Below are positions 12,938 through 32,672 of a DNA stretch of 64,000 nucleotides, piece after piece (positions within the stretch are counted from its first letter, which is position 1; each line of letters opens with the position of its first letter). The notes under the pieces are model-generated. The model had not been told where the DNA came from. It did not search any database and was given only the letters and a program-made list of their open reading frames with translations. The translations under genes and the position numbers were made by a program. The stretch spans positions 1-64,000 of the forward strand of contig NZ_ARZY01000011.1 in the NCBI RefSeq assembly GCF_000568405.1, in the 5' to 3' direction. The stretch is from Catenovulum agarivorans DS-2 (GTDB lineage: Bacteria > Pseudomonadota > Gammaproteobacteria > Enterobacterales > Alteromonadaceae).

Positions 12938-12955
12938 TGATTATTATTGACAACA
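12938..12955 (+). promoter_or_regulatory. Shared motif TGATT-N4-TTGAC, site 1 (TRAP/kdu operon)
   Basis: The sequence TGATTATTATTGACAACA matches three other upstream sites in this window (19784, 26681 and 32600) over about 16 positions. It lies about 110 bp before the TRAP operon start. A regulator-binding role is inferred from recurrence only. Confidence 0.45.
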
Positions 12956-13105
12956 TAAGCAATAAAAATCAAGCACAATGATTAATTTTAGTTCAAATAC
13001 GAATTAAAAAAACCAAAAATTTTACAAAAACACCACACGTCAATCACGAATAGACACATAACAGTCAACAACAATCCATAAATTTCTTTTTACGTCATTT
13101 TGTGT

Positions 13106-13111
13106 TATAAT
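13106..13111 (+). promoter_or_regulatory. Probable -10 box of the DeoR gene
   Basis: A perfect TATAAT lies about 95 bp before the chosen start. The matching -35 position (13083-13088, TTTCTT) is weak, so activation or a relaxed promoter is likely. Confidence 0.4.
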
Positions 13112-13205
13112 AGCCAATAGACTGTTAACTTTGAGGTTTTGCGAATAGAATATGGATAATGATTTAGACAACACACAAAATAGTATGAATGGGAAGGGGC
13201 TTCCA

Positions 13206-13991
13206 ATGCTAGAAAGACATAGACAACAACTAATAAAAGATATCCTAGACCAAGAACAATTCGCAAGCGTTAGAAGTTTAACCGAAAAACTGAATGCGTC
13301 TGAAGCAACAATACGCAGGGACATTCTAAAGATGTCAAAGCGTGGGGAGATCCAAAAGATTCGCGGCGGCGCTCAATCAATAAACCCAGCGCCAAGTAAG
13401 AAACACATCTCCAGTTCAGCATTTTTTGTTGATAAAGAGAAACACACAGAAACCAAAAAGCGCATTGCTCAGCGCGCGGCTGATTTATGTAAAGATGGCG
13501 ACTCAATTATTGTCAATGGTGGTAGCTCTACTTATATGATGGGTGAATACCTGCGTGATAAACAATTGAACATGTTAACCAATTCTTTTGTATTAGCCGC
13601 TTATATTAGCGAAAACAGCGATATTCAGGTCACACTACCTGGCGGTGAAGTTTACCGCGAGCAAGGGATTATTTTGAGCTCTTATGAAAGAGACAACACA
13701 GAATACTACCACAGCACTATGATGTTTATGGGCACACCGGGCATTGGTCAGTTTGGCGTAATGGAATCAGACCCGTTACTCATCCGCTCAGAGCAGCGTT
13801 TAATGAAACAAACTGAAAAATTGGTTATTTTGGCTGATAGCACTAAGTTAGGAAAACGCAGTAATTTCATTTTATGCCCGCTAGAAGATGTTGACATCTT
13901 AATCACTGATTCAAATGCAGATGCCGAAACCATCCGCCACTTCGAAAAACATGATATTCAGGTTATTGTAGTAGAAGCTGCAGACGACTAA
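13206..13991 (+). CDS. DeoR-family transcriptional regulator
   Basis: This sugar-responsive regulator has 261 residues from the chosen start. The N-terminal helix-turn-helix (LERHRQQLIKDILDQEQFASVRSLTEKLNASEATIRRDILKM) and the GEIQKIRGGAQ turn are typical of DeoR proteins. The remainder is the phosphosugar-sensing DeoRC domain, with the DGDSIIVNGGSSTYMMGEYL and VILADSTKLGKRSNFILC segments. An earlier ATG at 13152 is in frame, but AAGGGG lies just before 13206, so I prefer the shorter form. It is divergent from the TRAP-kduD-kduI operon, and a phosphorylated sugar or sugar acid intermediate is the likely effector. Confidence 0.9.
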   Translation: MLERHRQQLIKDILDQEQFASVRSLTEKLNASEATIRRDILKMSKRGEIQKIRGGAQSINPAPSKKHISSSAFFVDKEKHTETKKRIAQRAADLCKDGDSIIVNGGSSTYMMGEYLRDKQLNMLTNSFVLAAYISENSDIQVTLPGGEVYREQGIILSSYERDNTEYYHSTMMFMGTPGIGQFGVMESDPLLIRSEQRLMKQTEKLVILADSTKLGKRSNFILCPLEDVDILITDSNADAETIRHFEKHDIQVIVVEAADD

Positions 13992-14000
13992 CTGAATTTT

Positions 14001-14033
14001 TTTGTGGTATATGGTTAAACGATATACCACAAA
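14001..14033 (+). terminator. Hairpin terminator after DeoR gene
   Basis: TTTGTGGTATAT (14001-14012) pairs perfectly with ATATACCACAAA (14022-14033), starting 10 bp after the DeoR stop. Confidence 0.65.
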
Positions 14034-14048
14034 CACGCTCCCCTATTA

Positions 14049-14086
14049 AATTAACCTGAACTTGTTATCCCGAGTTCAGGTTAATT
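14049..14086. terminator. Second, bidirectional hairpin between convergent genes
   Basis: The 14-bp arms AATTAACCTGAACT and AGTTCAGGTTAATT form a perfect stem between the DeoR gene and the end of the GH78 operon. It probably terminates the minus-strand operon. Confidence 0.7.
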
Positions 14087-14122
14087 TTGCTTCATCCCAA
14101 ATAGCAGAATGCGACACGACCC

Positions 14123-16903
14123 CTAAGGTGCCTGTCTAGTCAATGCCGCTGAGATTTGATATTCACCGGGCTGAAGATTGCTCAAGTCAGCCGACTTGCC
14201 AGATTGTTGATTAATCATTAAAGTGTTCGCTCGAAACGCTGGTATTACAACGTCTGCGCTCGTGTTTTTCGGGATAGATACATTCATAGTGAACTGCTGC
14301 AGATTCAACTGCCAACTGACTTTAATTCTGCCAGCTGGCGTATCGTAAAATCCTTCAGCACTATCTAACTGACCTAACACTTGAGGTTTAATTTCAACCT
14401 GCTTGAACCCAGCAACTTTGGCTCGAATACCTAAAATCCCTTGATAAAACCATTGAGCAATGCTGCCATATGCATAGTGGTTTAATGAGTTCATCCCTTC
14501 TGGGTTAAAACCATCTTTGATTGAGTAAGAATTCCACCTTTCCCAAGTTGTAGTCGCTCCATTGTTAATGGAATAAAACCAAGAAGGATAAGTTTCTTTA
14601 AATATCAAATCGTAAACAATGTCGCTACGGCCTGCTTCTTGTAATACTTGTGCTAATAATGGTGTACCTAAAAACCCAGTACGCAAATGACCGTCAGCTT
14701 GTTCGATTAATTCAATTAGTTTGTGTTGCGCGATTGCAACTTGCTCACCTGTAAACAAGTCAAACGCCAACCCCAATAAATAAGTGGTCTGTGTCGATTG
14801 GCCCTGTTTAACATTCAACTTCTCGTCAAAAAAGTGATGGACAAACGCATGCTTGATGCGCTCAAACAATGCCAGATAACGTGTCGCATCTGCACTTTTA
14901 TCAAGCACACTGGCCGTTTGTGCGGTTAAATAAACCGAGCGCGCAAAGTAAGCAGTCGAAATTAAGTCAAAACGAGTGTCACCACGATTCGGGTTTTTCG
15001 CAGCAGGATCTGGATAAGGCTGCAACCAATCGCCAAAGGTTTTCATTGAAGATATCAATTCATCGCTTTGGCTTTTGTGATAGTCTAACCAACGCGTCAT
15101 CATTGTATAGTTGTCGGCTAAAATACTGGTATCACCCGTCATTTGATAAAGCTCCCATGGAATTATGGTCGCTGCATCACCCCAACCCGATGAAGGCCAA
15201 TTTATCCATTCAACAAACGGAATATAAAGCGGCACACCACCATCTTCAAATTGCTCTTCGCGCACACTCTGTAGCCATGCCGCCCAGAATGCGTAAACAT
15301 CAGCCATATACATTGAAGGAGTTGTGAATACTTGAGCATCGCCAGTCCAGCCTAAACGCTCGTCACGTTGCGGACAGTCTAATGGAATATCATAAAAATT
15401 ACTTTTTAAGCCCCAGCGAATATTTTGAGCAAGTTTATTTAACTTGGCATGAGACGTTACAAAGTTTTGCTCGACCTCTACATCAGAATGTTGAACAACT
15501 GCGGTTACCCATGATTTGCTCGGTGCTGCATTGGGATCAAACCCCGAAATTTCAACGTATCGATAACCATGGTAAGTAAACCTTGGTTGATATTCAGCAA
15601 TCCCATCCGCAGCAGGAATAAAAATATCGGTCGATTTAGCGCTGCGATAATTCTCTGTGTAAAATTCGCCTTTATGTAGGGCTTCGGCAAACCTTATGGT
15701 TATGGCTTGGTTTGCCAACGCCGGCACGTTAATTTTGGGTACGCCCACCATATTCTGACCAAAATCAAATATTACGGCTTTATTGTTGTTGGTAATAATC
15801 GAAACAGGCTCTAAACTTGCAACGTTTCGAATGGGGGCATGGCGTTTAGGTGCCAATTGAACTTTAAAATCGAGTTGATTTGCCGCAGCAGTTTGCCAAG
15901 CACTATCGTCAAACTGCACTTGAGCCCAGGACGACATTTGCTTGTTTTGGTCATAAAGTTCGCCATCGTAAATACTTGAAAACCGAATGGGCCCTTGTTG
16001 GGTTACACGCCAACTGTTATCTGTTGTAATGACCTGCCGCAGACCATTTTCATCAATAATTTCCAATTGAGCTAAAAACTCAGGTGTGACTTTATGCTCT
16101 TTGTCAGTAAATTTAAACACTCGGCCTGCATACCAGCCACCAGCTAGGTTTGCAGCCAATACGTTTTCACCTTGCGAAAGCAAGTCAGTCACATCATAAG
16201 TGAGGGTTTCGATTCTTTTTGCATAAGGCGTCCAGCCGGGGGTCATAGCATCATCGGGCGCAACCATTTGACCGTTGATAAATGCTTTGAACAAACCTTT
16301 AGCGGTTACATATAGTCTAGCTTGCTGAATAGAATTTTCAGCAGAAAAACGCTTTCTAAAATATTGCGCTGTCGCGATCGTTTTTTGTGAGGGTTTATTA
16401 ACTTGTAATGTATCAGGATGTGCAATCCATTCGGCCTGCCAATCTTGGTTAGACAACAAACCAAGTTCAACACGGTTTAACTCACTCCAGTTCGAGGCTT
16501 GCTTGTTCTCATCCCAAATACGAACGCGCCACAACAGTTGTTGGCGCGATACTAATGGTTGACCAGCATAGCGGATCCAAGCATTGTCAGCACTTGCAAC
16601 TTTGCCTGAATCCCACAAGTTAGCCTTGAAAGACTCACCTTGCTCCACAGCTGAACCAACTTGGATTTGATAGGCGCTTTGCGTGTTTTGTACCGAGCTA
16701 CTGGCAATTTTCCACGAGAACCTAGGCTTAGCTTCGTAATAGCCAATTGGATTAACAAAGCCTTCGCCAACTTTAAGTTCTACCGGTGCATCATTATTGG
16801 AAAATTGCTCAAAACTAAATGAACAAGAGGCCAATAACCAGCAAAACCCTACAAGCATCACATACAGTTTGTATGTACGGCTTAAAACACGCAACCTATC
16901 CAC
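14123..16903 (-). CDS. GH78 alpha-L-rhamnosidase lipoprotein
   Basis: This 926-residue exported enzyme should remove terminal alpha-L-rhamnose. The N-terminus is a hydrophobic signal with lipobox LASC (Cys at about 27), which suggests outer-membrane anchoring. The order of domains is the N-terminal beta domains (about 45-390, including FINGQMVAPDDAMTPGWTPY), the (alpha/alpha)6 barrel (about 480-820) and the C-terminal beta domain. The catalytic acid region DCPQRDERLGWTGD (about 506-519) is intact, as are the downstream WGDAATIIPWE and NHYAYGSIAQWFYQ segments. The start codon is GTG with AGGTG upstream. It follows GH105 by 16 bp. In ulvan pathways GH78 acts on rhamnose at oligomer ends after desulfation; substrate here is inferred. 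Confidence 0.93.
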   Translation of the reverse strand: MDRLRVLSRTYKLYVMLVGFCWLLASCSFSFEQFSNNDAPVELKVGEGFVNPIGYYEAKPRFSWKIASSSVQNTQSAYQIQVGSAVEQGESFKANLWDSGKVASADNAWIRYAGQPLVSRQQLLWRVRIWDENKQASNWSELNRVELGLLSNQDWQAEWIAHPDTLQVNKPSQKTIATAQYFRKRFSAENSIQQARLYVTAKGLFKAFINGQMVAPDDAMTPGWTPYAKRIETLTYDVTDLLSQGENVLAANLAGGWYAGRVFKFTDKEHKVTPEFLAQLEIIDENGLRQVITTDNSWRVTQQGPIRFSSIYDGELYDQNKQMSSWAQVQFDDSAWQTAAANQLDFKVQLAPKRHAPIRNVASLEPVSIITNNNKAVIFDFGQNMVGVPKINVPALANQAITIRFAEALHKGEFYTENYRSAKSTDIFIPAADGIAEYQPRFTYHGYRYVEISGFDPNAAPSKSWVTAVVQHSDVEVEQNFVTSHAKLNKLAQNIRWGLKSNFYDIPLDCPQRDERLGWTGDAQVFTTPSMYMADVYAFWAAWLQSVREEQFEDGGVPLYIPFVEWINWPSSGWGDAATIIPWELYQMTGDTSILADNYTMMTRWLDYHKSQSDELISSMKTFGDWLQPYPDPAAKNPNRGDTRFDLISTAYFARSVYLTAQTASVLDKSADATRYLALFERIKHAFVHHFFDEKLNVKQGQSTQTTYLLGLAFDLFTGEQVAIAQHKLIELIEQADGHLRTGFLGTPLLAQVLQEAGRSDIVYDLIFKETYPSWFYSINNGATTTWERWNSYSIKDGFNPEGMNSLNHYAYGSIAQWFYQGILGIRAKVAGFKQVEIKPQVLGQLDSAEGFYDTPAGRIKVSWQLNLQQFTMNVSIPKNTSADVVIPAFRANTLMINQQSGKSADLSNLQPGEYQISAALTRQAP

Positions 16904-16919
16904 AAATACACCTGTTTAA

Positions 16920-18143
16920 TTACTTGGACCACTTGGCCATTTCACTTGCTGCCAGTAATACAGCGCCAACACCATATAACTGTGAGTCAGTTTTCTTAAC
17001 AGGATCTGGGGATTTTCCAACATGCTGAACCCAATTTACTCGTCCATTAGGCTCAACAGCACGGACTAACGCATCCCAACCTTTTTCAACAACCTTTTTG
17101 GTGTTTGCATCCGTTAGTATGCCGTTGTTAACACCCCAAGCTAAACCAAAGGTAATGAAACCAGTACCACTTACTTCAGGGGTTTTTACTTTGTTCGGGT
17201 CTAATAACGAAGCAGGCCAATAACCTTCTTCCGTTTGTAAACCAACTAAACCAGCTGCATTTTTCTTGTATAGTTCAATGTAGCGATCTCGTGACGGATG
17301 ATCTTTAGGTAGCGCTTCAATAATCAGAGGTAATGCTGCAAATACCCAACCATTACCACGGCCCCAGAAAACAGGTTGACCATTGTCACTCTTCATATCG
17401 AAGTATCGGCTATCACGGAAAAACATGCCGTACTTGTCCGAGAATAAATAATCCGCCGCAGCCCAGTACTCTTGGTCTGCGTATTCTAAATATTTAGGAT
17501 CGCCTGTTATATTGCTCAACATAATCCAAGTACGCGGTGCCATATATAATGCGTCTGCCCAGCACCAACGAGTTTGACAGTTACCTTCAAGGTGAACCGT
17601 GCCATGTCCAGAAGCAGTTTCGTCACGCATTTCTAAACCGACGGTAGGTTTATTCTCTAGAATCCAATCAAACAATTTTTGCACTTCTGCGTAAGCTTTC
17701 TTCTCGCCCGTTTTTTCGGCTAACCAAATGTAGGTTTGACCTATCGTATGGTCATCCGCATGGTAAGGACGGTCTAACAATAATTCGTAATTCTCACCTT
17801 CAGCAATTTCTTTAACTTGTTTAAACAAAGCTTGGTCGTTTGATGTATCAATCCAACGGGTCAAACCAATAAAAAACGAAGCTTGAATCCAGAACTTAGG
17901 GTTTTCAGATTTCGCCTTATGTGACTCTGGAATATAGTATAAATTGTCTAATTGGCGCATTTGCCAGTTTGCAGCACGTGTAGCGACATCGTAAGCAACA
18001 GCATGAATTTGTTTTTCAGTTTGTTTTGCAGTTGCAATCGGAGCAACTGAATTGGTGTCATTTGATTGACTAGTAGCACCACAGCCCAATAAAGCGAGCG
18101 TAGCAGCAACTGGGATAAGTGATTTTTTTAAATTAAACTTCAT
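16920..18143 (-). CDS. GH105 unsaturated uronyl hydrolase lipoprotein
   Basis: This 407-residue enzyme is expected to remove the 4,5-unsaturated uronic acid that a lyase leaves at the non-reducing end. The signal ends in a lipobox (LALLGCG, Cys at about 21). The (alpha/alpha)6 barrel is recognisable, with YHADDHTIGQTYIWLAEKTG (about 125-145) and RWCWADALYMAPRTWIML (about 187-205), which carry the Asp residues used by GH88/GH105 enzymes to hydrate the double bond. It sits between GH78 and a sulfatase in the same operon. The released uronate would feed KduI. Beta-glucuronyl (ulvan) and rhamnogalacturonyl (pectin) forms cannot be separated by eye; the surrounding genes favour ulvan. Confidence 0.92.
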   Translation of the reverse strand: MKFNLKKSLIPVAATLALLGCGATSQSNDTNSVAPIATAKQTEKQIHAVAYDVATRAANWQMRQLDNLYYIPESHKAKSENPKFWIQASFFIGLTRWIDTSNDQALFKQVKEIAEGENYELLLDRPYHADDHTIGQTYIWLAEKTGEKKAYAEVQKLFDWILENKPTVGLEMRDETASGHGTVHLEGNCQTRWCWADALYMAPRTWIMLSNITGDPKYLEYADQEYWAAADYLFSDKYGMFFRDSRYFDMKSDNGQPVFWGRGNGWVFAALPLIIEALPKDHPSRDRYIELYKKNAAGLVGLQTEEGYWPASLLDPNKVKTPEVSGTGFITFGLAWGVNNGILTDANTKKVVEKGWDALVRAVEPNGRVNWVQHVGKSPDPVKKTDSQLYGVGAVLLAASEMAKWSK

Positions 18144-18216
18144 AATACTTTACCTTCACATTCAACATATATCTGTGAGGCAGCATCTCCTTATACTGCG
18201 TCATCTAACTGGCAAA

Positions 18217-19632
18217 TTACTTATATTCTTCGAATAAATCGAAAAACTCTTTTGCAGTACTTGGATATTTAGATGCCAAGTTTCTAGACTCAGATGGGTC
18301 TTTAACAATGTTGTACAACTCTAGTTCGGCATCAAAGCCGTAACGGACAGCTTTCCAGTCACCCTTACGAGCAGCTTGATAAGTATCACCAATGATGCCC
18401 GAGTTAGGATCACCTACTTGCTTAGCAAATTCCCAATATAAAACGCGCTCTTCCATTTCGATTGGCGAGTCATTTAATAATCCGCGAATAGATACACCAT
18501 TTGTATGCACTCGTGGCACAATATTTAAATCAACATCAGCGATATCTGCAAATGTCGGTAGAACATCAGCAAAAATCCACGGTGTCTTATCAACACGGCC
18601 TTGTTTAATTTGAGCTGGCCATTGAACGATCATAGGTACGTGTATCCCACCGTCATATAAGTCACGTTTTTGACCTTTATACGGCGCTGAAGCTTTGAAA
18701 AATTCAGGTGAAGCTCCACCTTCGTCATGCGGGCCATTGTCAGACGTAAATACAATTAAAGTATTTTCTAATTTACCTTCTTTTTCCAACGTACGGAGTA
18801 TTTTACCAACATAGTCGTCAAGTGCGCTCACCATACCGGCTAAAACAGCATTTGGCTTTTCAACTGGCTCTGGATAATAAGCGGCATATTTGTCTGCAGG
18901 CTTACCACCTTTCATCCCTGTATATTCTTTTTCAGCAAAGCGATACTGGTTGCTATACTCTTCTGGTACACCCAACTCAGCATGAGGCGATGTGTAAGTT
19001 AACATCATGAAAAATGGATTTTCACGAGGCGCTTCAATATATTTGATTGCTTCTTCAGTAAAGATTTTTTGTGCATAAACACCTTTGCGGCCACCTTCGT
19101 TTTCTTTTACACGAATTTTTTGACCATCGCGCCACAAAATTTGTGGATATTGTCTATGCCCTTCTAAAATTGAATACATACCAAACCAAGTGTCAAAACC
19201 CATAGCCAGTGGATCAGTTACACCCATTTGCTGGCCGATAGAATATTTACCGATTAACGTTGTATCGTAGTCAGCATATTTCAAAACGTGTGCAATTGTG
19301 ATGTCTTTATGATTCAACTCAACCGTGTTTGAGTTGTTGGTCATATAACGTCCATCTCTTCCGGTAAACAGTGCAACGCGCGAAGGAGAGCAAACAGTGT
19401 TACCTGCATAAGCGTTGTCAAAACGAATACCGTTTTTAGCCATTTTGTCTAAATTTGGGGTTTTAATTGGTGTGTCACCATAGGCGCCAATTTGGTTAAA
19501 CCCCAAATCATCCGTCAAAATAAATATAATATTTGGCTTCTCTGCTGTTGCTGCTTGTAAAACAGCTGGTGCAGCCAAAAGCACAGCCATACATAAGGCG
19601 AATAAACGGCCTTTGCCACGATACAATTTCAT
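18217..19632 (-). CDS. Family S1 sulfatase (formylglycine type), exported
   Basis: This 471-residue arylsulfatase-fold enzyme should hydrolyse sulfate esters on a carbohydrate. A Sec signal (about residues 1-28, ending AAT) targets it to the periplasm. The metal-binding DDLGFNQIGAYG and the CSPSR motif (Cys at about 81) that is matured to formylglycine are intact, with the later VFTSDNGPHDEGG metal site. It is the first gene of the operon with GH105 and GH78. The resemblance to the arylsulfatase A-like S1 subfamilies is clear, but the position of sulfate removed cannot be read. The motif at 19784-19803 is about 150 bp upstream. The sulfatase-maturing enzyme is not in this window. Confidence 0.93.
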   Translation of the reverse strand: MKLYRGKGRLFALCMAVLLAAPAVLQAATAEKPNIIFILTDDLGFNQIGAYGDTPIKTPNLDKMAKNGIRFDNAYAGNTVCSPSRVALFTGRDGRYMTNNSNTVELNHKDITIAHVLKYADYDTTLIGKYSIGQQMGVTDPLAMGFDTWFGMYSILEGHRQYPQILWRDGQKIRVKENEGGRKGVYAQKIFTEEAIKYIEAPRENPFFMMLTYTSPHAELGVPEEYSNQYRFAEKEYTGMKGGKPADKYAAYYPEPVEKPNAVLAGMVSALDDYVGKILRTLEKEGKLENTLIVFTSDNGPHDEGGASPEFFKASAPYKGQKRDLYDGGIHVPMIVQWPAQIKQGRVDKTPWIFADVLPTFADIADVDLNIVPRVHTNGVSIRGLLNDSPIEMEERVLYWEFAKQVGDPNSGIIGDTYQAARKGDWKAVRYGFDAELELYNIVKDPSESRNLASKYPSTAKEFFDLFEEYK

Positions 19633-19783
19633 CCAATACCTCTTTGATTTAACTTAAATTGAAGCATCATTGCGAACAGACAAAGTGTTTACAAAATGCT
19701 CAACCCAACCAAACAATAACTAGCTTATGTTAACTAATATTACATTAATTCAACCAAATTTAAAGATAAAAATTGATTGCTAG

Positions 19784-19803
19784 TGATTTATTTTGACCAT
19801 TAA
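19784..19803 (+). promoter_or_regulatory. Shared motif TGATT-N4-TTGAC, site 2 (sulfatase/GH105/GH78 operon)
   Basis: TGATTTATTTTGACCATTAA matches the sites upstream of the TRAP operon, the PL25 lyase and the receptor-linked lipoprotein. The distance to the sulfatase start is about 150 bp and the orientation is opposite to the gene. Confidence 0.45.
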
Positions 19804-19903
19804 ATTAAAAAATATGTCTTTATGATTAAAGAACGCAAATTTCAAAAGAAGAAGTTTAGACTAAATTTGCCAAGCGACTAATAAAGGAAGGAAAAAAAGA
19901 AGC

Positions 19904-19985
19904 GTCCATGCCTCACACACACATAGTATGAAGGCTATCCAATCACCTTCATTCAGGGACTAAACTGTTCCAGAACCACTGAATC
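19904..19985 (-). repeat. Diverged copy of the rhaI 3'-end structured element
   Basis: On the minus strand this segment resembles the end of rhaI and its terminator. It reads as codons for GFSGSGTV followed by a stop, then GTCCCTG (19954-19960), an inner GAAGG/CCTTC hairpin, a TGTGTGTG-rich loop and CATGGAC (19904-19910). A pyrimidine-rich run follows. The matching copy at 4352-4435 encodes GQSGSGIV and stop. There is no complete gene here, so it is either a relic of a second rhaI-like gene or a conserved RNA element. Confidence 0.6.
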
Positions 19986-20120
19986 CCTGAAGACAGCTAC
20001 AACATCAACAAACAAAAAGCAGGCTCGCTTGTTGATGACACGACAGAGTAGCAAGTCTGGCGAGGATAATACCATCAAAAACAATCACGTCAAGTCAAAA
20101 TATGTCTATTTGCTTTTATT

Positions 20121-20435
20121 TTAGTCTAAATGGAAAACCTGTTTAAGCGGTTTGCTGACAGGAGAATTATCGTCATTCGTCTGCATAATCTCCGCCATAA
20201 AAGCCCACCATTTTTGTACTACAGGATTCGAGGGTAATGCGTCAACCTTTTGTTTTGATTCACAATATAAAACAGCAAACAATACACAGGTTTCTTCATC
20301 TAAAAAAATTGAGTAGTCGCTAATGCCAGCATCTTTGAGCACATTTGACAGTTCAGGCCAAATTTCATCATGGCGCTTTTTATATTCAGCCGCTTGGCCA
20401 GGATAAATTTTCATTGTAAACGCTAGTTTTTCCAC
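20121..20435 (-). CDS. rhaM: L-rhamnose mutarotase
   Basis: This 104-residue protein is full length for RhaM. It interconverts alpha and beta L-rhamnose so that the isomerase gets its preferred anomer. The family pattern is clear: MKIYPGQAAEYKKRHDEIWPEL with the catalytic His (about 22), GISDYSIFLDEE with the Tyr (about 41) and the WWAFMAEIM block (about 70-78). AGAGGTG precedes the ATG. It is separated from the main rhamnose operon by about 10 kb. The next gene downstream on the same strand is the sulfatase, about 490 bp away, so it is probably transcribed alone. Confidence 0.95.
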   Translation of the reverse strand: MEKLAFTMKIYPGQAAEYKKRHDEIWPELSNVLKDAGISDYSIFLDEETCVLFAVLYCESKQKVDALPSNPVVQKWWAFMAEIMQTNDDNSPVSKPLKQVFHLD

Positions 20436-20572
20436 ATATCACCTCTAAAAACTTGAAAAGTCATACACAAAGCTCAGCCCTGCACACAATAATAATTAGA
20501 TCAGCATAGTTCTTTTATGCTTTCACCAAACATTATAACAATCAACTTTAATCACACACAAAGTATTTATAA

Positions 20573-21547
20573 TCACAAGCGTTCAACCTGCAATTTATAC
20601 TTGTGTTTATACTCTTCAACCGTTTGCAAAACTTCATTGACGCTTTCTTCGAGTTCAGATCCCATCTTAGTTATCTCATGTGGAAATTCATCTTGCATTA
20701 GCGTCATGAGTGCATACCAAACAGGTTTGTATTTATCTTTTAAATTATACTCAGGCATTTCCATAGTGCGCGGAACACCGCCGGTTAATCCGCGTAATGT
20801 TTCAATGCGCTCTGGATTATTTTTAATTATGTGCGCAATTTTTTGTTGCTGTTGTTCATTACCTAAACACGCTAGAAAATCAAAACACTCTTGTTTAGTT
20901 AAACCCACTAGTTTGACTAATTTGAAAAATTCATAAAAAGGTTTGCCATAATCAAACTGTTGCTCAAGCATTTTGGTTGAGCCGCCGACAATTTTAAACG
21001 TGGCTGACGACAATAAAATTTCTAGTAACCGGCGCTGCTCTTTCTCTTTTAACTTACCGAGTAATTCATCAATATTATCTATTAACAACAATATCTTTTT
21101 ATCTTGTTGGTTTATCGCGTTTTCTAGGTAACTGAAACTTTTATCGTCATAGTCAGCATCATCAAACAACTCTTCCCTATCATCCAAAATATGCGGAAAT
21201 TCGCTTGGATATAAGCATTGTAAATAGTCGGCTATTTCTTCCCATAAACGGCTGAGTGAACGAATTTGATATTGTTCTTCAGTAAATTTTACTGGTAATA
21301 GGAACTTTGCAAGCTCTCCGTCAGCTTGCACCGATAATTGTATTTTACGCAACATGGTGGTTTTACCCTGCCCACGTTGACCAATAATAATAAAGTGCTG
21401 ACTCGGTACGCTAAAATCAGTTTGCTGAATGTCTTCAAATATTTCATCAAAGTCGTGATTACGTACTACAAATTTGGCTAAAAACTCTTGCTCGTCGATT
21501 TGATCAGGGCTGTATTTAAATCTGGAATACTGATTAGTTAGCGACAT
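20573..21547 (-). pseudogene. AAA-type ATPase, probably internally deleted
   Basis: This open frame of 324 residues encodes a P-loop ATPase. The Walker A (IIGQRGQGKTTML, about 54-66) and Walker B (KKILLLIDNIDE, about 150-161) are intact. The region up to RGLTGGVPRT (about 255) resembles archaeal-type ATPases that normally continue with a winged-helix and a long C-terminal part. Here it jumps to a C-terminal-looking block (NLKDKYKPVWYALMTLMQDE and an acidic coiled tail), so a large in-frame deletion is likely. The neighbouring gene upstream is a decayed member of a similar family. The frame is open and a GGTGG site precedes the ATG, so a product may still be made. The deletion is inferred from recall of the family, not an alignment. 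Confidence 0.55.
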
Positions 21548-21612
21548 TTTTATTCCACCACATTCTTAAAATTGGAGAGTTAAATTTATAAATTCTGCTG
21601 TCGTCGTTATTA

Positions 21613-22154: not shown

Positions 22155-22158
22155 AACC

Positions 22159-22242
22159 CACCTAACTTGACAAATTATTATTTGTTAAGTTAGGTGACAA
22201 AATATTTTTTTGTCAAACCTTCTGACAAATTATTTTTTGTCT
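22159..22242. repeat. Three phased palindromes upstream of the ATPase remnants
   Basis: Three copies of a 20-21 bp inverted repeat, consensus TGACAAA-N6-TTTGTCA, begin at 22168, 22195 and 22223, that is every 27-28 bp. The first is nested in a 38-bp near-perfect palindrome whose outer 10-bp arms are CACCTAACTT and AAGTTAGGTG (22159-22196). They abut the start of the decayed ATPase gene. Operator sites or recognition sites of the lost system are the simplest readings. Confidence 0.7.
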
Positions 22243-22283
22243 AATGGTTTAGTTGTGAATTCAGGCTCTAGCCCTTAGATAAG

Positions 22284-22312
22284 AAAAAGGCGTTGCTTGT
22301 AGCAACGCCTTT
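22284..22312 (-). terminator. Terminator of the first TonB receptor gene
   Basis: AAAAGGCGTTGCT (22284-22296) and AGCAACGCCTTTT (22300-22312) form a perfect 13-bp stem with a three-base loop, ending in a T-run on both strands. It lies 27 bp past the receptor stop. Confidence 0.88.
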
Positions 22313-22338
22313 TGTGGTTTATACAGCTAAACTAAAGG

Positions 22339-25455: not shown

Positions 25456-25639
25456 AATGTTATTCCCATGTTTTAAATTGTGATCCAGCAGTTTGATCTA
25501 ATCACAAAACAAATCACATTCAACCACCAAATAACAAAATTAGTCCAAAATGTTCATATACGCAACAAATTGTCAGGCAATTTTACCAATAAAATAAAAA
25601 ACTAAATTATTTCAATACTTCAGCAGAGATTTTATAAAG

Positions 25640-26521
25640 TTAATATAGGGTTGTTGGGCGGGAATCAGTGTATTGATAATGCACCCAAAGCTCAGGTCGG
25701 TTTAAGGGTACACTATTAGGCAATAGGGGGTTCACTAGGCGAATAATGTTACGATCACCGGTTAAAAACTTCTTAATTAGCTGGCTGTGATGTTTTTCAA
25801 AAATTTTATCAAATTCACCTGTTTGAATAATTTGTTCAAAGCCACTGTTAAGTAGTCTGGCCAATTTATGGTTGTTTTTTTCCACATAAAAGTAAAAACA
25901 CACTGGGTAAGTAATTAATACATGCGGATCTACAGCAATTGATAACTTATATTCTTGTTTGTATAACTCAGCCTCACGAGCTGCTTCTAGAATAGACATT
26001 GGAAAATAATCAAAGCGCTGTTTGTGCAGCATGCGGAACAAACCGATAAAATGTGCACCTTTTACCGGACTAATGCCATTATGCTCAAAAATTCGATTGT
26101 CAGTCCAAGTATGAAACATCCCTGGTTTAAAGGCTTTTAACTGTTCAAGCGTTTTGACTGCTTTTAAGGTATCCAATTGGTTTTCATGTACTAAGGCCAC
26201 TCGCCAACCACTTAGTCCCTTCATTATCGGGTATTGAATGGCTTGGTATGCATCTAATCTTTCTTGAGTCGCATAGCCAATCATAATATCGATATCAGTT
26301 CGTGCGACTAATAATTCAAAGGCGCGCTGATGGGGTATAGAAAGTGGATAACTTTTTGCAGTATATTGGTCAGATTCTGCCGTATTTAAAATGGCTTGTA
26401 ACAATTCTGTATGATAAGCATCTCTGTATACACCCAGACCGCGATAGACCACATCTTGCGCATAACAAACATTCAAGCTTGCTAGTAAAAGCATAATACT
26501 CGATTTAAGCCAACCAAACAT
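25640..26521 (-). CDS. Stand-alone type 2 periplasmic solute-binding protein
   Basis: This 293-residue protein carries a signal peptide (about 1-22, ending CYAQ) and a bilobed type 2 periplasmic-binding fold like SBP family 3 proteins (YRGLGVYRDAYHTELLQAIL; later LLNSGFEQIIQTGEFDKIFEKHHSQLIKKF). No ABC permease or ATPase is nearby. Such orphan proteins in Alteromonadales often act in sensing rather than transport. It is divergent from the PL25 lyase, with about 200 bp between them. The ligand is unknown. It could report on extracellular degradation products, but only position suggests that. Confidence 0.7.
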   Translation of the reverse strand: MFGWLKSSIMLLLASLNVCYAQDVVYRGLGVYRDAYHTELLQAILNTAESDQYTAKSYPLSIPHQRAFELLVARTDIDIMIGYATQERLDAYQAIQYPIMKGLSGWRVALVHENQLDTLKAVKTLEQLKAFKPGMFHTWTDNRIFEHNGISPVKGAHFIGLFRMLHKQRFDYFPMSILEAAREAELYKQEYKLSIAVDPHVLITYPVCFYFYVEKNNHKLARLLNSGFEQIIQTGEFDKIFEKHHSQLIKKFLTGDRNIIRLVNPLLPNSVPLNRPELWVHYQYTDSRPTTLY

Positions 26522-26680
26522 ATACTCGCTCGCTCCGAGTTCAATGATAAAAATTCTTTTAAATTATAGTTCACAAATTATATTTTGCCGCTTCAGAAAT
26601 AAAACTCAGCAATCTGAACAACATTTTACTAATTTTTTTGTTACAACCACTCTATTTAATGAGTTACAGTATGTTATATT

Positions 26681-26704
26681 TGATTAATATTGACAAACTT
26701 TGAT
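26681..26704 (+). promoter_or_regulatory. Shared motif TGATT-N4-TTGAC, site 3 (PL25 lyase)
   Basis: TGATTAATATTGACAAAC starts 37 bp before the lyase ATG. From 26682 it agrees with the site at 32601 in 20 of 23 positions. A second TTGACA (26704-26709) follows closely. Confidence 0.5.
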
Positions 26705-26717
26705 TGACAGAATTAAT

Positions 26718-28199
26718 ATGAAAAATCCACGTATCAAACGTTCACTCATCCCACTTGCTTCTCTTTTTGCGACAAGCATTTTATTGTTTGGCTGCGGAGG
26801 TACAGCAAATACTCTCAGCCAAGCCGAAAATACCAAGGTAAAAGTCGAATATTTTGCCAACAATGCACTTGGCAACTCACTAGCCGTGGTGCAACATCCA
26901 GCGGGAATTCACAAAAACGGCATTACTTATGTGTCTTATCAAGGGCCTTTAGAAGACCCATATGTGGCTTCCTACAATCACGATAGCGGTCAATGGCTTG
27001 GTCCATTTAAAGCAGGTATAAGTGAACTAGGTAAAGATGCAGAACAACCTAAAAAAATAGATAACCATGGAAAACCAACCATGATTATTGATGACTTGGG
27101 CTATATACATGTGTTTTTTGGTGGGCATGGCGGCGACAAACGTCATGGGAAAAACCCCTTAGGCAATATACATTATGGTGGTAATAAACACGCAGTGAGC
27201 AAACGTCCTTACGATATCACTGAGTGGGAAGAATTAGACAACATCACCCCGTTTGGTACTTATAACCAAGCAGTCAAAATGGACAATGGTGATATTTACC
27301 TGTTCTATCGCCACGGTGCACATCGCAGTGATTGGGTTTATCAAAAATCAACCGACCATGGACGAACTTTTGGTCCAGCCGTATCATTTTTAAAACATAA
27401 GAAACGCAAGGATATTGCAGCAGATGACAGCTGGTATGCTTGGGTAACAAAAGGCCATGGCGACGACATTATTATCTCGTACGACTACCACGTTTGCTGG
27501 AACCATAAAGCAAATAATGGTCGCGGCCATACTACCGAAAGACATAATGTTTATTATATGGTGTTTAATACCAAAACCGGTGAGTGGAAAAACGTTAATG
27601 GCAAAGCGTTACAGTTACCAGTAACAAAGGAAGCTGCGGATATACATACGCTCGTTGCCAGTACTGGCAAAGATTGGACTTTTAACGGCTCTGCACATTT
27701 AGATGAAAATGGTTATCCGCATATTGGCATCAATATCGGTAAAGATTTAGGCGCCAAAACAGGTGGGCCAAAACAAACCAGCTATTTTAAGTGGACAGGC
27801 AGTCAGTGGGTTGGCGGCAAGCCGGTCAATACACAAGCTCGGCTTGACAACACAGACACACGCGGTGATTTTATGATTAAATCGTCCAATGAAGTTAGTT
27901 TTATATTAGGGTACAAAGAACAAGAGCAAGCCATACTCAGCTACTTTAATAGCACGGATGGCGGTAATACTTTTGTAAAAGGACAAGAATTACTCCGCAA
28001 GCAAAAAGCAGGCTGGGCGCTCACCGCACTCATTGAAAATGCTCACCCTGATGCTCGCATGATAGTCGCTGAAAAACCACAGGGTTCGAGTTGGAATAAA
28101 GTATACCTGATAGGTGACAATGGGCCGATCATGCGCGACAAAAGCCAAGCTGACGTGTTAACCCTAAAAGATAAACAACGATTGGAAAACTATAAATAA
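26718..28199 (+). CDS. Ulvan lyase, PL25-type, seven-bladed propeller lipoprotein
   Basis: This 493-residue secreted lipoprotein (signal and lipobox LLFGCGG, Cys at about 26) should cleave the polymer by beta-elimination next to glucuronic or iduronic acid. The body is a BNR-type beta-propeller. His117 (DNHGKP), His137 (GGHGG), Tyr182 (FGTYNQ) and Arg198 (FYRHG) have the spacing 20-45-16, which is what I recall for the His/His/Tyr/Arg set of the PL25 enzyme PLSV_3936. A Cys-His-rich segment (DYHVCWNHKANNGRGH) may hold a structural metal, as in related PL24/PL25 propellers. The frame opens at a TTG (26700), but ATG 26718 is a better start. PL24 is the main alternative. Confidence 0.85.
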   Translation: MKNPRIKRSLIPLASLFATSILLFGCGGTANTLSQAENTKVKVEYFANNALGNSLAVVQHPAGIHKNGITYVSYQGPLEDPYVASYNHDSGQWLGPFKAGISELGKDAEQPKKIDNHGKPTMIIDDLGYIHVFFGGHGGDKRHGKNPLGNIHYGGNKHAVSKRPYDITEWEELDNITPFGTYNQAVKMDNGDIYLFYRHGAHRSDWVYQKSTDHGRTFGPAVSFLKHKKRKDIAADDSWYAWVTKGHGDDIIISYDYHVCWNHKANNGRGHTTERHNVYYMVFNTKTGEWKNVNGKALQLPVTKEAADIHTLVASTGKDWTFNGSAHLDENGYPHIGINIGKDLGAKTGGPKQTSYFKWTGSQWVGGKPVNTQARLDNTDTRGDFMIKSSNEVSFILGYKEQEQAILSYFNSTDGGNTFVKGQELLRKQKAGWALTALIENAHPDARMIVAEKPQGSSWNKVYLIGDNGPIMRDKSQADVLTLKDKQRLENYK

Positions 28200-28217
28200 T
28201 CATAGGACACAACTTAT

Positions 28218-28922
28218 ATGCTTAAAAAATTGACCTTTACAAGCCTGTTTATATTGCTGGCAAGTTGCAGCCTAAATACGTCACAGAAAAAACCAAACGT
28301 ATTGCTGAGTGAAAGTTTAACCCATTGGCATAATGTTTATGCCGATGGTGAAGCAAAAATCGTTGATAACGAAATACACCTAATTTCACATGGCAACTGG
28401 TTCTTTTTAACAAAAGAACAATATTCCGACTTTGTGTTAGAAGCCGAAATACTCATGCCTGATGTTGAAGAGTACTCAAACTCTGGTTTTATATTTAGAG
28501 CTCAGACTCGTCCGCACAAAAGTGGCAAAGGCTTAGAAGCATACGGATACCAAGCAGAAGTTGATCCAAGCGATCGAAAATGGAGCGGCGGTTTGTATGA
28601 TCAGGGTCGAAGAAAGTGGTTACATCCAATTCACCCTGAACGCTCACATCCAGATAGTGATTTTAAACTAAACAAATCACCGACCTGGACGGATGAAAAA
28701 GCAAATGCATACAAGCACCTGCAATGGAACAAGTACCGCATCGAAGCAATCGGTACTGAAATCAAAATATTCGTCAACGGAGTTTTGACCACACATGTTA
28801 TCGATTTAAAAGAGTCAAAAGGCCATATTGGTATACAACACCACGGTAGCAAGCTTTACAGTAAAAGTGGTGACCGTAGTGGCGCAATTAGATTTCGCAA
28901 TATCCAGCTCACTTCTATTTAA
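28218..28922 (+). CDS. DUF1080-family lipoprotein
   Basis: This 234-residue exported lipoprotein (signal with LLASCS, Cys at about 16) consists of one jelly-roll domain of the DUF1080 type (3-keto-disaccharide hydrolase-like, laminarinase/LamG-like fold). Visible family blocks are FVLEAEILMPDVEEYSNSGFIFRAQ, AYGYQAEVDP, WNKYRIEAIGTEIKIFVNGV and GHIGIQHHGS. It starts 18 bp after the PL25 lyase and is surely co-transcribed with it. DUF1080 proteins are glycan-binding or act on modified disaccharides. The exact role is unknown; binding the polymer at the cell surface or acting on lyase products are both possible. Confidence 0.85.
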   Translation: MLKKLTFTSLFILLASCSLNTSQKKPNVLLSESLTHWHNVYADGEAKIVDNEIHLISHGNWFFLTKEQYSDFVLEAEILMPDVEEYSNSGFIFRAQTRPHKSGKGLEAYGYQAEVDPSDRKWSGGLYDQGRRKWLHPIHPERSHPDSDFKLNKSPTWTDEKANAYKHLQWNKYRIEAIGTEIKIFVNGVLTTHVIDLKESKGHIGIQHHGSKLYSKSGDRSGAIRFRNIQLTSI

Positions 28923-28932
28923 TTTGTAACAA

Positions 28933-28974
28933 ATTGGCTGTTTATCGGGTAAAAAAGCCGACTAAACAGCCAAT
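28933..28974 (+). terminator. Terminator of the PL25-DUF1080 operon
   Basis: ATTGGCTGTTTA (28933-28944) and TAAACAGCCAAT (28963-28974) form a perfect 12-bp stem right after the DUF1080 stop. There is no clear T-run. Confidence 0.65.
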
Positions 28975-29072
28975 CACCCAACCAGCAAATTCAACCATAA
29001 CAAATCACTTTAATCACACAATCGATCTTTCAGTTATTATAAACGTGTTTTATATGCTTTTATATTCCTAAA

Positions 29073-29087
29073 AATTGATCTAAATTG
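29073..29087 (+). promoter_or_regulatory. AATTGATCTAAATTG motif upstream of second TonB receptor
   Basis: This 15-bp sequence matches the reverse complement of 41378-41392 in 14 of 15 positions, and that site precedes the GH106 operon. It lies about 100 bp before the receptor start. Confidence 0.35.
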
Positions 29088-29190
29088 ATTGCCAAAAGCA
29101 TTTTTTGACCTAAAATCGCGATCGAAAACCAACAAACATTTTGCCAACAAAATGTTAACAACCACCCCTCTTTATTTCGAGGTCATAAAA

Positions 29191-32100
29191 ATGATAAAAA
29201 AAGTAAACTTGTGCACATTCAAACTGAATCAAATTGCTGTTGCGTTCGGTACAGTTGGGTTGTTGTCAATTAGTAGTTCGGCTTTAGCGCAAACTGCACA
29301 AGAAGAAGACACGGAAGTAATCGCGGTTACTGGTGTTCGTAGTTCATTGGAAGCCGCATTGAATACCAAGCGTGAAGCAGTTTCAATTGTCGATGCGATT
29401 TCAGCATCAGATATCGACGCATTACCCGCATTGGACTTAGGTGAAGCACTACAAGCTTTGCCAGGTGTGCAATTAAACTCAGGTGACGAAGGCCGTCAAT
29501 CAACCATTAGTTTGCGTGGTTTAGGCAGTGGTTTTGTTAAAACAACTGCTTTTGGTCAATCTTTTGCTGTACCTTCTGCAGCAGGCGGCCCTGATAAAGT
29601 GGGTGCAGCAAATCCATTTTCTTCATTCGAAGCTGGCGTGTTTGACGGTGTCACCGTTGTTAAATCTCCAACAGCTGACCTGCAAGAAGGTGGTATGGCA
29701 GGTATTGTTGATAAAAAATTACAACGTGCATTAGCCAAAAAAGATGGCACTGCAGGCTTTAGTATCGGAGCTATTTATGAAGAATTAGCTGATGCAGTCT
29801 CGCCAGAAATCAAATTATATGGTGTCAAACACCTAATTGAAGACAAACTAGCAGTTGCATTTAAATTTAGTGCTTCAGAGCAAGAATTTAGACGCGATAC
29901 TTTTGACGTTATTGATTACGTAAATGTAGAAGATCAAATAATCGACATTACAAAAACAGTCGATGGTCAAAAAGTTAAAGTTCCAACACTATACACACGA
30001 GCAACTAACTTAGCAGAATATAAAACTAAGTGGGCAGATGTATTAGGTGACAATGCTGAAATTCGAGTACCACATAGAGGCCGTAACGTTACTCAATATA
30101 GCGACGGTAATCGTGCGTCTTTTTCAGGTAATATTGAGTTAAAAGCGACTGATAACTTAAAAGTTGGTGCACATATTTTAGCGTCACAACGCAAACTAGA
30201 TAATGGTACGAAAGAAACCACTAACTATGAGCTTGGTTTACATAAATCTAACCCTGCAACCAGCGATTGGATTGACAGCCAAGTAACCTTAGATTTAGAC
30301 ACAGCACCATTTGCTTACACTTGTGTAACAGAAGACTGCGCTGGCGGACAAGCATTTGTGGTATCTAACATCGACTTTAGCAATGGCCGTTACCAAATTG
30401 AAAACCGTAAAACGACCTTTGTCGAAAAAACAGCTGGAGTGATTTTATATGCTGATTACACCAAAGACGACTGGGTAATTGACGGTAAATTAACGCACTC
30501 AGAAGCTTCTAACCAATTTGAAAATATTGGACTTAACTTCTCTCATGTGGGCAGTAACAACGCTAAATTTGCACCAACAGGCTTTAACGGTACGATAAAT
30601 ACCGGTAATGGTGACCTAGCTTCAATTGAAGTGTCAGGTGGTTTAGCCGTGCCTTATGTTTACGACAAACTTGAGTGGTCAGTACCAACAGCAAGTAGCT
30701 CGAACATTACTTCTCGTGATGAGTTAAACCAAGGGCGAACATTACAAGCTAATATTAATGGTCGTGTGCGTGATTTAGATAGCAAATATACAGCTGTTGA
30801 AGCAAACGCTAAACGTTTTATTGAACTAGGTTTAGGTGATGCATTACGTTTTGATGCAATTAAATTTGGTGCACGTTTTTCTCAAGAAACCATTAGCAAC
30901 CTAGACCAGCTACAAGGTTTTGGTGGTATTGATACAGCTAATGTTGGCAGCGCATATTTATCCACAGAAAACGTATTATCTGCTCAGCAAGCACCATTTT
31001 TTAATGGCAAAATTCCTGGCTCTTTTGACCACACAAATGGGTGGGTGACAATTAACAATGAGCAAGCCATTGAAATTTTACAAACAAATATAGTAACAGA
31101 TAGAAATGACCTTGTTTTACCAAACGGTGTTACAACTATTGACCCTAATTTACAAAGAAATCGTTCAGGTTTCTGGGATCGAATCAATAATACTGGTTTC
31201 GCCAGTCAAGCAAACCAGAATTTTGAAGTTGAGCAAGATGTTAGTGCGTTTTATGTGACAACTGATTTTTCAGGTGAATTACCACTTGATATAGCATACA
31301 CAGGTAATTTAGGTGTGCGTTATGTCGAAACGGCTAATAAATTTGATGCGGTTAATATCGCGCAAGACTTTTTAAAGGACGAAAATGGTCAAGCAGTATT
31401 GGACGCAAAAGGTAATGAAATAGCAACTTATGCAGTTGAACCTTTTATCATTAAAGACGACTACAACGTTACTTTACCTATGGCGAATATATCGTTTGAA
31501 TTATCTGATGATGTGATATTACGTGCTGCTTATTACGAGAGCATGGTTAGACCAAACTTAGTTGCGCAATTGCCTAGCCCTAAAGTAGGTCAATATACAA
31601 ACAGAGTAGAGATTGACTTACCTTCAGCCACAGTTAGACCTTATGAAGCTGACAATTATGACTTGTCTTTAGAATGGTATAACCGTGAAGGTAGTGCTAT
31701 ATCAGTTGGTTTTTTCCAAAAAAACATTACCAACTTGTTTGAGAGTGACTTAAATCTTTATTGCCCAGAAAACAATTCAGACCCTATCGTTAGTCAATTT
31801 GCAGGGGAAATATACTTTGATGAAGCGAATGGAAAATGTAAGCAGGTCGCGTTTACCAATATCATAGACCCTACAACAGGCGAAGTAACTGATTCAGAAC
31901 AAAGAGAAGTTAATATTGATAGACTTATTAACACCGACGGTGAGTTAAAAGTTGAAGGTTTTGAATTATCTATTCAACAAAAACTCGACTTTTTACCTTA
32001 CCCTTGGAATGGTTTCGGTGGTGTATTTAACTTTACTAAACTTAGACAAAGTGGTGACGAAAATGAACTTCCGCGCGTTTCACCAAAATCATATAACTTA

Positions 32101-32397
32101 ATTGGTTATTGGGAAAACGATGGTTTAAGTTTACGTTTGGCTTATAACTGGCGTGACGAGCAGAAATTAGCTGGCGCGAACTCTTTCTTGGGCACAGGTA
32201 CTAGAACCCGCTCTGAAAGAAGCCGTTTAGACTTTTCAGGCTCGTACAAAGTTAGCAATAAATTCAGTGTTAACTTACAAGCGTTTAACTTAACAGATGA
32301 GGTAGGTACCGACTACTACGGATATGACGAGCGCGCGATACATAGCTTGCAATACGAAGGCCGTGTATTAAAAGCAGGTTTTAGTTTGAAATTCTAA
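29191..32397 (+). CDS. TonB-dependent receptor (outer membrane)
   Basis: This 1068-residue receptor starts at 29191 with GAGGT upstream; the open frame from 29089 would add an unlikely 34 residues before the signal peptide. The signal ends SSALAQT (about 33) and is followed by a TonB-box-like TEVIAVTGVR, a plug domain (LDLGEALQALPGVQLNSGDEGRQSTISLRGLG) and the beta-barrel ending AGFSLKF. It stands downstream of the PL25 operon and is followed by a separate lipoprotein gene in the same direction. That pattern, receptor then surface lipoprotein, fits a polysaccharide import unit. The specific ligand cannot be read. Confidence 0.93.
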   Translation: MIKKVNLCTFKLNQIAVAFGTVGLLSISSSALAQTAQEEDTEVIAVTGVRSSLEAALNTKREAVSIVDAISASDIDALPALDLGEALQALPGVQLNSGDEGRQSTISLRGLGSGFVKTTAFGQSFAVPSAAGGPDKVGAANPFSSFEAGVFDGVTVVKSPTADLQEGGMAGIVDKKLQRALAKKDGTAGFSIGAIYEELADAVSPEIKLYGVKHLIEDKLAVAFKFSASEQEFRRDTFDVIDYVNVEDQIIDITKTVDGQKVKVPTLYTRATNLAEYKTKWADVLGDNAEIRVPHRGRNVTQYSDGNRASFSGNIELKATDNLKVGAHILASQRKLDNGTKETTNYELGLHKSNPATSDWIDSQVTLDLDTAPFAYTCVTEDCAGGQAFVVSNIDFSNGRYQIENRKTTFVEKTAGVILYADYTKDDWVIDGKLTHSEASNQFENIGLNFSHVGSNNAKFAPTGFNGTINTGNGDLASIEVSGGLAVPYVYDKLEWSVPTASSSNITSRDELNQGRTLQANINGRVRDLDSKYTAVEANAKRFIELGLGDALRFDAIKFGARFSQETISNLDQLQGFGGIDTANVGSAYLSTENVLSAQQAPFFNGKIPGSFDHTNGWVTINNEQAIEILQTNIVTDRNDLVLPNGVTTIDPNLQRNRSGFWDRINNTGFASQANQNFEVEQDVSAFYVTTDFSGELPLDIAYTGNLGVRYVETANKFDAVNIAQDFLKDENGQAVLDAKGNEIATYAVEPFIIKDDYNVTLPMANISFELSDDVILRAAYYESMVRPNLVAQLPSPKVGQYTNRVEIDLPSATVRPYEADNYDLSLEWYNREGSAISVGFFQKNITNLFESDLNLYCPENNSDPIVSQFAGEIYFDEANGKCKQVAFTNIIDPTTGEVTDSEQREVNIDRLINTDGELKVEGFELSIQQKLDFLPYPWNGFGGVFNFTKLRQSGDENELPRVSPKSYNLIGYWENDGLSLRLAYNWRDEQKLAGANSFLGTGTRTRSERSRLDFSGSYKVSNKFSVNLQAFNLTDEVGTDYYGYDERAIHSLQYEGRVLKAGFSLKF

Positions 32398-32422
32398 TTT
32401 CAGCCGACACTGTGATTTAGCA

Positions 32423-32470
32423 AAAGCCCAACTAGCTTGCGGATGAGATCCCCAATAGTTGGGCTTTTTT
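32423..32470 (+). terminator. Terminator of the second TonB receptor gene
   Basis: AAAGCCCAACTA (32423-32434) pairs with TAGTTGGGCTTT (32456-32467) and a T-run follows, 25 bp after the stop. Confidence 0.88.
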
Positions 32471-32599
32471 AGTTCAATAGGCTCAAATGCTTGTACCTAA
32501 TTTTGCTAACACATGGTAATTAACGGTGAATCTCATATTTAGCCATTGCAGCGATATAGTTATTCTAAAACAGCCTAGTTATCATCCTATCAAGCCAAT

Positions 32600-32623
32600 A
32601 GATTAATATTGACCAAATATGAT
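32600..32623 (+). promoter_or_regulatory. Shared motif TGATT-N4-TTGAC-like, site 4 (receptor-linked lipoprotein)
   Basis: AGATTAATATTGACCAAATA matches the PL25 upstream site in 20 of 23 positions counted from 32601. It ends about 50 bp before the GTG start of the lipoprotein. Confidence 0.5.
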
Positions 32624-32672
32624 CACAAAAGTTAAAATAATGACTCCAATTGTTATTATTAAGGAAATTTTT

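Follow-up and report, generated by a model that had tools for sequence, protein, structure and literature searches.

The motifs of DeoR-family RhaR regulators have been described in four bacterial lineages as two imperfect direct repeats with a period of 10–11 bp (Rodionova et al. 2013, PMC3870299). In that study of eight lineages, rhamnose-oligosaccharide genes were co-regulated in some lineages, and Alteromonadales go unmentioned in its main text. We analyzed a window of 64,000 nucleotides from the seaweed-degrading bacterium Catenovulum agarivorans DS-2 (contig NZ_ARZY01000011.1, positions 1–64,000, forward strand), in which related intergenic sequences recur before genes for rhamnose, uronate and ulvan use. 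These sequences are quite probably operators of the DeoR-family protein encoded at 13152–13991, a predicted RhaR-like repressor that would place the ulvan loci under one control with rhamnose and uronate catabolism.

In this element, a unit of about TGATTGAATA (~TGATTGANWN) is directly repeated at intervals of exactly 10 bp, in two to four tandem copies; TTGAT and TTGAC words return every 10 bp in the intergenic regions of the window. In seven window promoter regions, 11 pairs of TGAY were found 10 bp apart, compared with a mean of 0.435 and a maximum of 4 in 1000 shuffles, and no spacing from 5 to 42 attained 11 pairs in any shuffle. The other 14 window intergenic regions examined (3153 bp) held a single such pair. 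The motif training set consisted of 28 upstream regions of orthologous genes from seven relatives, with the window left out; it held 26 pairs at 10 bp, whereas spacings 5–42 averaged 3.55 pairs, and the next most frequent spacing was 20 bp (11 pairs). Motif discovery in this set (60 random starts, and 30 starts for each of five shuffled sets) yielded aTGATTGAATATGA at width 14 and TTGATTGATTATGATTGANTATGA at width 24, with log-likelihoods of 85 (41–44 in the shuffled sets) and 162 (76–83 in the shuffled sets), respectively. The best window match of the relatives-trained matrix was the rhaD promoter. Only 9.6% of the window is intergenic, and 17 of its 30 best width-14 matches and 19 of its 30 best width-24 matches were intergenic. 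Furthermore, a leave-one-genome-out test, restricted to upstream regions of genes with more than 55% identity and with a floor of p = 0.005, gave p<0.05 for 23 of 35 regulon promoters (7 of 7 in the window) and for 6 of 36 other promoters, these controls including SBP3 twice, which shares the PL25 intergenic region, and the ulvan-cluster genes GH105, DUF1080 and GH39, which are possibly true targets.

A sequence-only reading of the same DNA had noticed a shared string, TGATT-N4-TTGAC, before four operons. The string is present there, always on the plus strand, exactly at 12938, 19784 and 26681, whereas the copy at 32600 has one mismatch (AGATT). As the unit it had been misread, the functional unit being the helix-phased 10-bp direct repeat, and its list of sites was incomplete, missing the rhaD array (7998–8041), which is the strongest, and the site before TonB receptor 1 (25504–25537). 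The gene labels of the window were upheld for the TonB receptors, the sulfatase, the GH88-type unsaturated glucuronyl hydrolase, the rhamnosidase and TRAP DctM. The predicted operators, the regulator gene and the PL25 gene are given below; the relatives cited by handle, G177 (C. agarivorans YM01) and G085 (C. maritimum Q1), belong to the genus of the window.

7998–8041, minus strand: predicted operator array before rhaD, GTTATTTAAT GTGATTGAAA GTGATTGAAT GTGCTTGACT GTGT; top matrix score, leave-one-out p = 0.005 (the floor).
12937–12951, plus strand: predicted operator GTGATTATTATTGAC between the divergent TRAP-kdu operon and deoR; first site of the sequence-only reading.
12953–12976, minus strand: adjoining stretch GTGCTTGATTTTTATTGCTTATGT, best matrix match of the TRAP-kdu/deoR region; leave-one-out p = 0.025.
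13152–13991, plus strand: DeoR-family regulator (PF08220 and PF00455), the proposed binder and repressor.
19773–19797, plus strand: predicted operator before the sulfatase-GH105/88-GH78 operon, with three units in phase, TTGATTGCTA GTGATTTATT TTGAC; second site of the sequence-only reading, leave-one-out p = 0.005.
20074–20098, minus strand: second, distal predicted operator TTGACTTGACGTGATTGTTTTTGAT in the same intergenic region as 19773–19797; matrix score 20.4, exact three-unit match.
25504–25537, minus strand: predicted operator before TonB receptor 1, TTGTTATTTG GTGGTTGAAT GTGATTTGTT TTGT; score 16.3, leave-one-out p = 0.015.
26680–26709, plus strand: predicted operator of three phased units, TTGATTAATA TTGACAAACT TTGATTGACA, located between the PL25 -10 and the start codon; third site of the sequence-only reading.
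26718–28199, plus strand: PL25 ulvan lyase, a lipoprotein; BNR_4, and a match to the solved PL25 ulvan lyase 5uam (E = 3.3e-194).
28985–29008, minus strand: possible operator before TonB receptor 2, GTGATTTGTTATGGTTGAATTTGC, best matrix match of its region; score 17.8, leave-one-out p = 0.005, and p = 0.005 at the matching offset in G177 too.
29075–29110, plus strand: phased block before TonB receptor 2, TTGATCTAAA TTGATTGCCA AAAGCATTTT TTGACC, which includes TTTTTTGACC; its first two units hold width-14 rank 14.
32599–32628, plus strand: predicted operator before the lipoprotein, TAGATTAATA TTGACCAAAT ATGATCACAA; fourth site of the sequence-only reading, leave-one-out p = 0.020.

With one mismatch allowed, the 14-mer has 17 matches in the window against 7.23 expected, and none of 100 shuffles reached 17. 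The string was dropped as a genome marker, with 18 matches against 14 of its reversed control in 4.57 Mb (3 of the 18 in the window), that is, near the random background. The last two of its four sites do agree at 20 of 23 positions, at 26682–26704 in the PL25 copy. All four sites had been placed between genes; this holds for the three exact matches (none in a coding sequence), and for the fourth only with GTG 32673 as the start of the lipoprotein, a choice based on an AAGGA and a signal peptide, the listed open reading frame beginning at ATG 32619 within the extended site. The sulfatase site is intergenic as claimed but points away from the operon it was said to precede. The site at 12937–12951 has counterparts in G177 (TGACTAGTAATGAC) and G085 (TTGACAAATTATGAC), with a width-14 matrix rank of only 27. 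As had also been reported, TTTTTTGACC stands at 29101 upstream of TonB receptor 2, but the same string occurs twice inside window genes, and it was dropped as a site of its own. At 29101 it sits in a block with phased repeats that is kept in G177; the whole TonB receptor 2 leader (29061–29130) is strongly conserved with that strain. A word GCGATCG follows the phased block in the window and in G177, and in G177 it also precedes the block; it is perhaps the site of a second regulator.

The regulator belongs to the DeoR family, with PF08220 at 24–78 and PF00455 at 98–254, both above the cut-off, and no relative of solved structure was found by sequence at E≤0.001. Its gene is flanked by the TRAP-kdu operon and a rhamnosidase-GH88-sulfatase operon, and in many relatives it adjoins kdu, TRAP or rha genes. 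In a family survey of 196 genomes, 8 carry a DeoR copy of at least 70% identity, 17 carry one of 47–60%, and 171 fall outside these groups. The three-unit pattern TGAY-N6-TGAY-N6-TGAY was counted 74 times against 20 for its reversed control in the 8 closest genomes and 97 against 46 times in the 17. The excess over the control rises with DeoR closeness, and the per-genome differences were larger in genomes with the DeoR (one-sided Mann-Whitney p = 0.00015 and 0.013, without phylogeny correction). A 10-bp pair was found upstream of deoR, read strand-aware, in 4 of the 8, in 11 of the 17 and in 7 of 10 loci of a set from named genomes; this last set excludes L139 (57 bp upstream) and L129–L131 (the same genomes as G085, G177 and G134), L141 in it repeats G169 of the 17 (neither with a pair), and one genome accounts for both L136 and L137. 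The repeat thus tracks one DeoR clade across genomes.

The distribution of rhaD gave the same picture. The gene (E≤1e-100) was found in 22 of the 196 genomes, each of them one of the 25 that have this DeoR, and no rhaD genome without the DeoR was found among the 196. A site is present in all 23 rhaD promoters, every one from a DeoR-bearing genome. Seven reach p = 0.005, five show a 10-bp pair, and the 11 that were fetched later all score p≤0.030, share one orientation and in 9 cases have an exact TGAY pair. Some of these promoters are near-identical (G138/G158, G121/G164 and both of G049). The rhaD of G049 (C1:1050023–1052200), a genome of another genus, is 92% identical to that of the window and so nearer to it than the copies of six same-genus genomes (76–87%), which suggests horizontal transfer.

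The sequence-only reading had proposed a regulon site of a local regulator, either GntR, DeoR or the sigma factor; the DeoR protein fits, and the other two do not. Binding by the GntR protein (FadR subfamily, ExuR/UxuR-like; 112–819) is very unlikely, even though its gene lies within the rha cluster of both the window and G177, a homologue of at least 55% identity occurs somewhere in all eight closest genomes, and its best NCBIfam models, though below cut-off, are ExuR and UxuR. The orthologous stretches fetched from the other close genomes did not show the gene at the threshold used. An orthologue (E≤1e-60) is present in 17 of the 196 genomes and missing from 12 of the 22 with rhaD, all 12 of which have the rhaD site, and in five genomes (G004, G116, G118, G173 and G180) it occurs without the DeoR. 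FadR-type GntR proteins have short inverted repeats as operators; the inverted repeat TGGTNNACCA is at chance level in the window, with two copies against 1.25 expected, each of them within a gene.

Three promoters could be read, and the predicted operators cover the core promoter at differing places.

7980–8007, minus strand: putative sigma-70 promoter of rhaD, TTGACT-N16-TATTAT, with its -35 within an operator unit.
12926–12953, minus strand: putative TRAP-kdu promoter, TTGTCA-N16-TATCTT, the operator spanning its -35 and spacer; TTGTCA-N16-TATMTT in the window, G177 and G085.
26672–26680, plus strand: putative extended -10 of the PL25 promoter, TGTTATATT, directly before the operator in three Catenovulum genomes.

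The rhaD promoter TTGAC[TA]-N16-TANN[AT]T was found in 16 of the 23 examined and in 7 of 7 of the closest set. In the three Catenovulum genomes the TRAP-kdu promoter reads TTGTCA-N16-TATCTT or TATATT, with the units over its -35 and spacer, and the extended -10 of PL25 reads TGTTATATT twice and TGCTACAAT once. Because this extended -10 stands directly before the operator, the PL25 repeats lie at and past the expected transcription start. At TonB receptor 2 and at the sulfatase operon, a conserved -10 could not be established.

These positions bear on the view that TTGAC is a plain sigma-70 -35 box and the remainder AT-rich chance, which is highly improbable. The exact 10-bp phasing speaks against it, above all at PL25, where three phased TGA words are kept in G085, and in G177 with TTGAA as the first, while the intervening bases diverge. 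A -35 role is impossible at PL25 and for the first-read sulfatase site, in G138, G193 and G158 the repeat before rhaD persists although TTGAC is absent, and the repeat excess depends on the presence of the DeoR. On the other side, TTGACT is very probably a -35 at rhaD, TTGAC is moderately enriched between genes (3.4 vs 2.4 per kb), and the 14-mer is at the genome background. The -35 view is contradicted for most sites, and a second role as -35 box is left only for the rhaD site and perhaps for the lipoprotein site.

That the sites are promoters of the extracytoplasmic function (ECF) sigma factor at 35562–36134, which is accompanied by a LamG-domain partner, is extremely improbable. Three or four units in 10-bp phase are unlike a two-box promoter, the first-read sulfatase site points away from its gene, and the PL25 site falls between the -10 and the start codon. 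Although the sigma gene adjoins the cluster, TTGAC looks like a -35 box and a matrix match precedes a sigma paralogue on contig C35, a close homologue is missing from G134, G009 and G160, three of the eight closest genomes (best by E-value 21–26% identity), in spite of significant sites there. The sigma gene and its partner recur, in the window (33907–36134), on C35 (~5990–8115) and in G177 (C9:2126–4173, and on C22, C24 and C33), with seven sigma copies in G177 (46–94% identity) and two in the window's own genome. The LamG partner, likely an anti-sigma factor, was seen in the window, on C35 and on C9 of G177, and on C35 a PL25-like gene directly follows it.

A regulator encoded elsewhere, such as an OmpR-type response regulator or an AraC-type activator, is quite unlikely to bind the sites. 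Members of both families bind direct repeats in helical phase, but the repeat stands before deoR itself in many clade members, its genome-wide excess follows DeoR closeness, and an operator downstream of the -10, as at PL25, is unsuited to an activator.

The placement of the predicted operators over core promoters suggests repression by the DeoR protein, because the varied positions all cover the core promoter, whereas activation would call for a constant position upstream. From the operator positions and the family, we infer a repressor that would be released by a sugar phosphate. DeoR subunits would bind successive units along one face of the helix, covering the -35 at rhaD, the -35 and spacer at TRAP-kdu and the stretch just downstream of the -10 at PL25, and would thereby repress transcription. 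An intermediate of ulvan breakdown would release the protein, most likely a phosphorylated rhamnose derivative, e.g. L-rhamnulose 1-phosphate, or a uronate-derived keto sugar. In this way a single repressor would link rhamnose and uronate catabolism with the ulvan loci and also regulate itself.

Two observations had been named as counting against the sequence-only reading: a random frequency of the motif, which applies to the 14-mer string genome-wide, and a lack of conservation before orthologous operons, which does not apply, as the phased repeat is kept before many of them, if not before all. Five of 7 orthologous sulfatase promoters contain the core TCAAAATAARTC unchanged, and the other two differ from it by one base.

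Several points weigh against the DeoR operator reading. The seven window regions were chosen once the motif was known, so that the independent sets weigh more. In the window's own genome the three-unit pattern is at control level overall (5 vs 4 reversed), and a slight excess remains in the 171 genomes without the DeoR (595 vs 478). In the closest set only 4 of 8 have the pair before deoR, and pairs at spacing 30, which is in phase as well, outnumber those at spacing 10 (7 vs 6). The best-scoring site at TRAP-kdu/deoR and at TonB receptor 2 is a neighbour of the first-read site. Twelve of the 35 regulon promoters fail p<0.05 in the leave-one-out test: those of PL25 in G009, G049, G085 and G160 (in G009 and G160, PL25 directly follows the sulfatase gene and is co-directional with it), of kdu/TRAP in G009, G085 (two), G134 and G177, of TonB receptor 1 in G009 and G177, and of the sulfatase in G160. 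Finally, the constant place of the rhaD site over the -35 would suit an activator too, and the identity of the effector is a guess.

In stretches of the own genome outside the training set (C11 past the window, and C35), all 9 matches scoring at least 13 were intergenic with respect to open reading frames of at least 120 aa, and they form 8 separate arrays. Right behind these sites lie, among others, genes for two TonB receptors, three BNR_4 proteins, an ECF sigma factor and two proteins of GH88 type, one of them below cut-off. C11 at 64–111 kb and C35 are further carbohydrate clusters of this genome, and as they bear high-scoring sites, the regulon is probably scattered over the genome. It is conceivable, though doubtful, that a single DeoR-type repressor acting through arrays of two to four or more units exerts graded repression on a scattered ulvan regulon in Catenovulum. 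Such a regulon would take in monomer catabolism, uptake, lyases, TonB receptors and the ECF sigma gene of a second cluster, and array length together with promoter overlap would set the order of induction. If true, this would amount to a simple master circuit governing the use of green-algal polysaccharides in Gammaproteobacteria.

Other features of the window were also observed. The 940-bp intergenic region at 19633–20572 contains the two predicted operators listed above and an inverted-repeat-like block, TTCAGGGACTAAACTGTTCCAGAACCACTGAATCCCTGAA, which is seemingly partly kept in G177. It is followed at 20573–21547 by a lone gene for a NACHT/STAND-type ATPase amid the ulvan cluster. Before the chemoreceptor gene at 59037, positions 58902–58915 have a width-14 score of 15.1 (rank 4); the best width-24 site before this gene, a different one, was not significant in the leave-one-out test (p = 0.119).

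Among described regulators, UlaR (PRK13509) is the best NCBIfam match of the DeoR protein, near full length at 203 bits, which is below the curated cut-off of 244 bits and does not allow an assignment to UlaR. IolR of Bacillus, also of the DeoR family, controls the inositol regulon through tandem direct-repeat operators with a similar unit, although a single literature search did not locate its consensus. Among the matches listed from the openly licensed literature, we found no paper on this DeoR/rhamnose/ulvan regulon. The operator architecture is already known; what we have not found in print is this regulon, which differs in lineage and in its reach into uronate and ulvan genes. The outcome is one regulator, its predicted operator and a testable gene list that links sugar catabolism with polysaccharide loci, and the scoring matrix can be used to find further ulvan genes.

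The closest likeness is to the RhaR regulons, which also have a DeoR-family regulator beside rha genes and direct-repeat operators of 10–11-bp period, as far as they are described in PMC3870299. In the present system the period is exactly 10 bp, rhaD occurs solely in genomes with the DeoR (22/22) and a site precedes each rhaD (23/23). The likeness lies in repeat architecture and gene context. Unlike the RhaR regulons so described, the system of the window often has three or four units of about TGATTGAATA and adds uronate (kdu), TRAP uptake and ulvan-locus genes to those of rhamnose catabolism.

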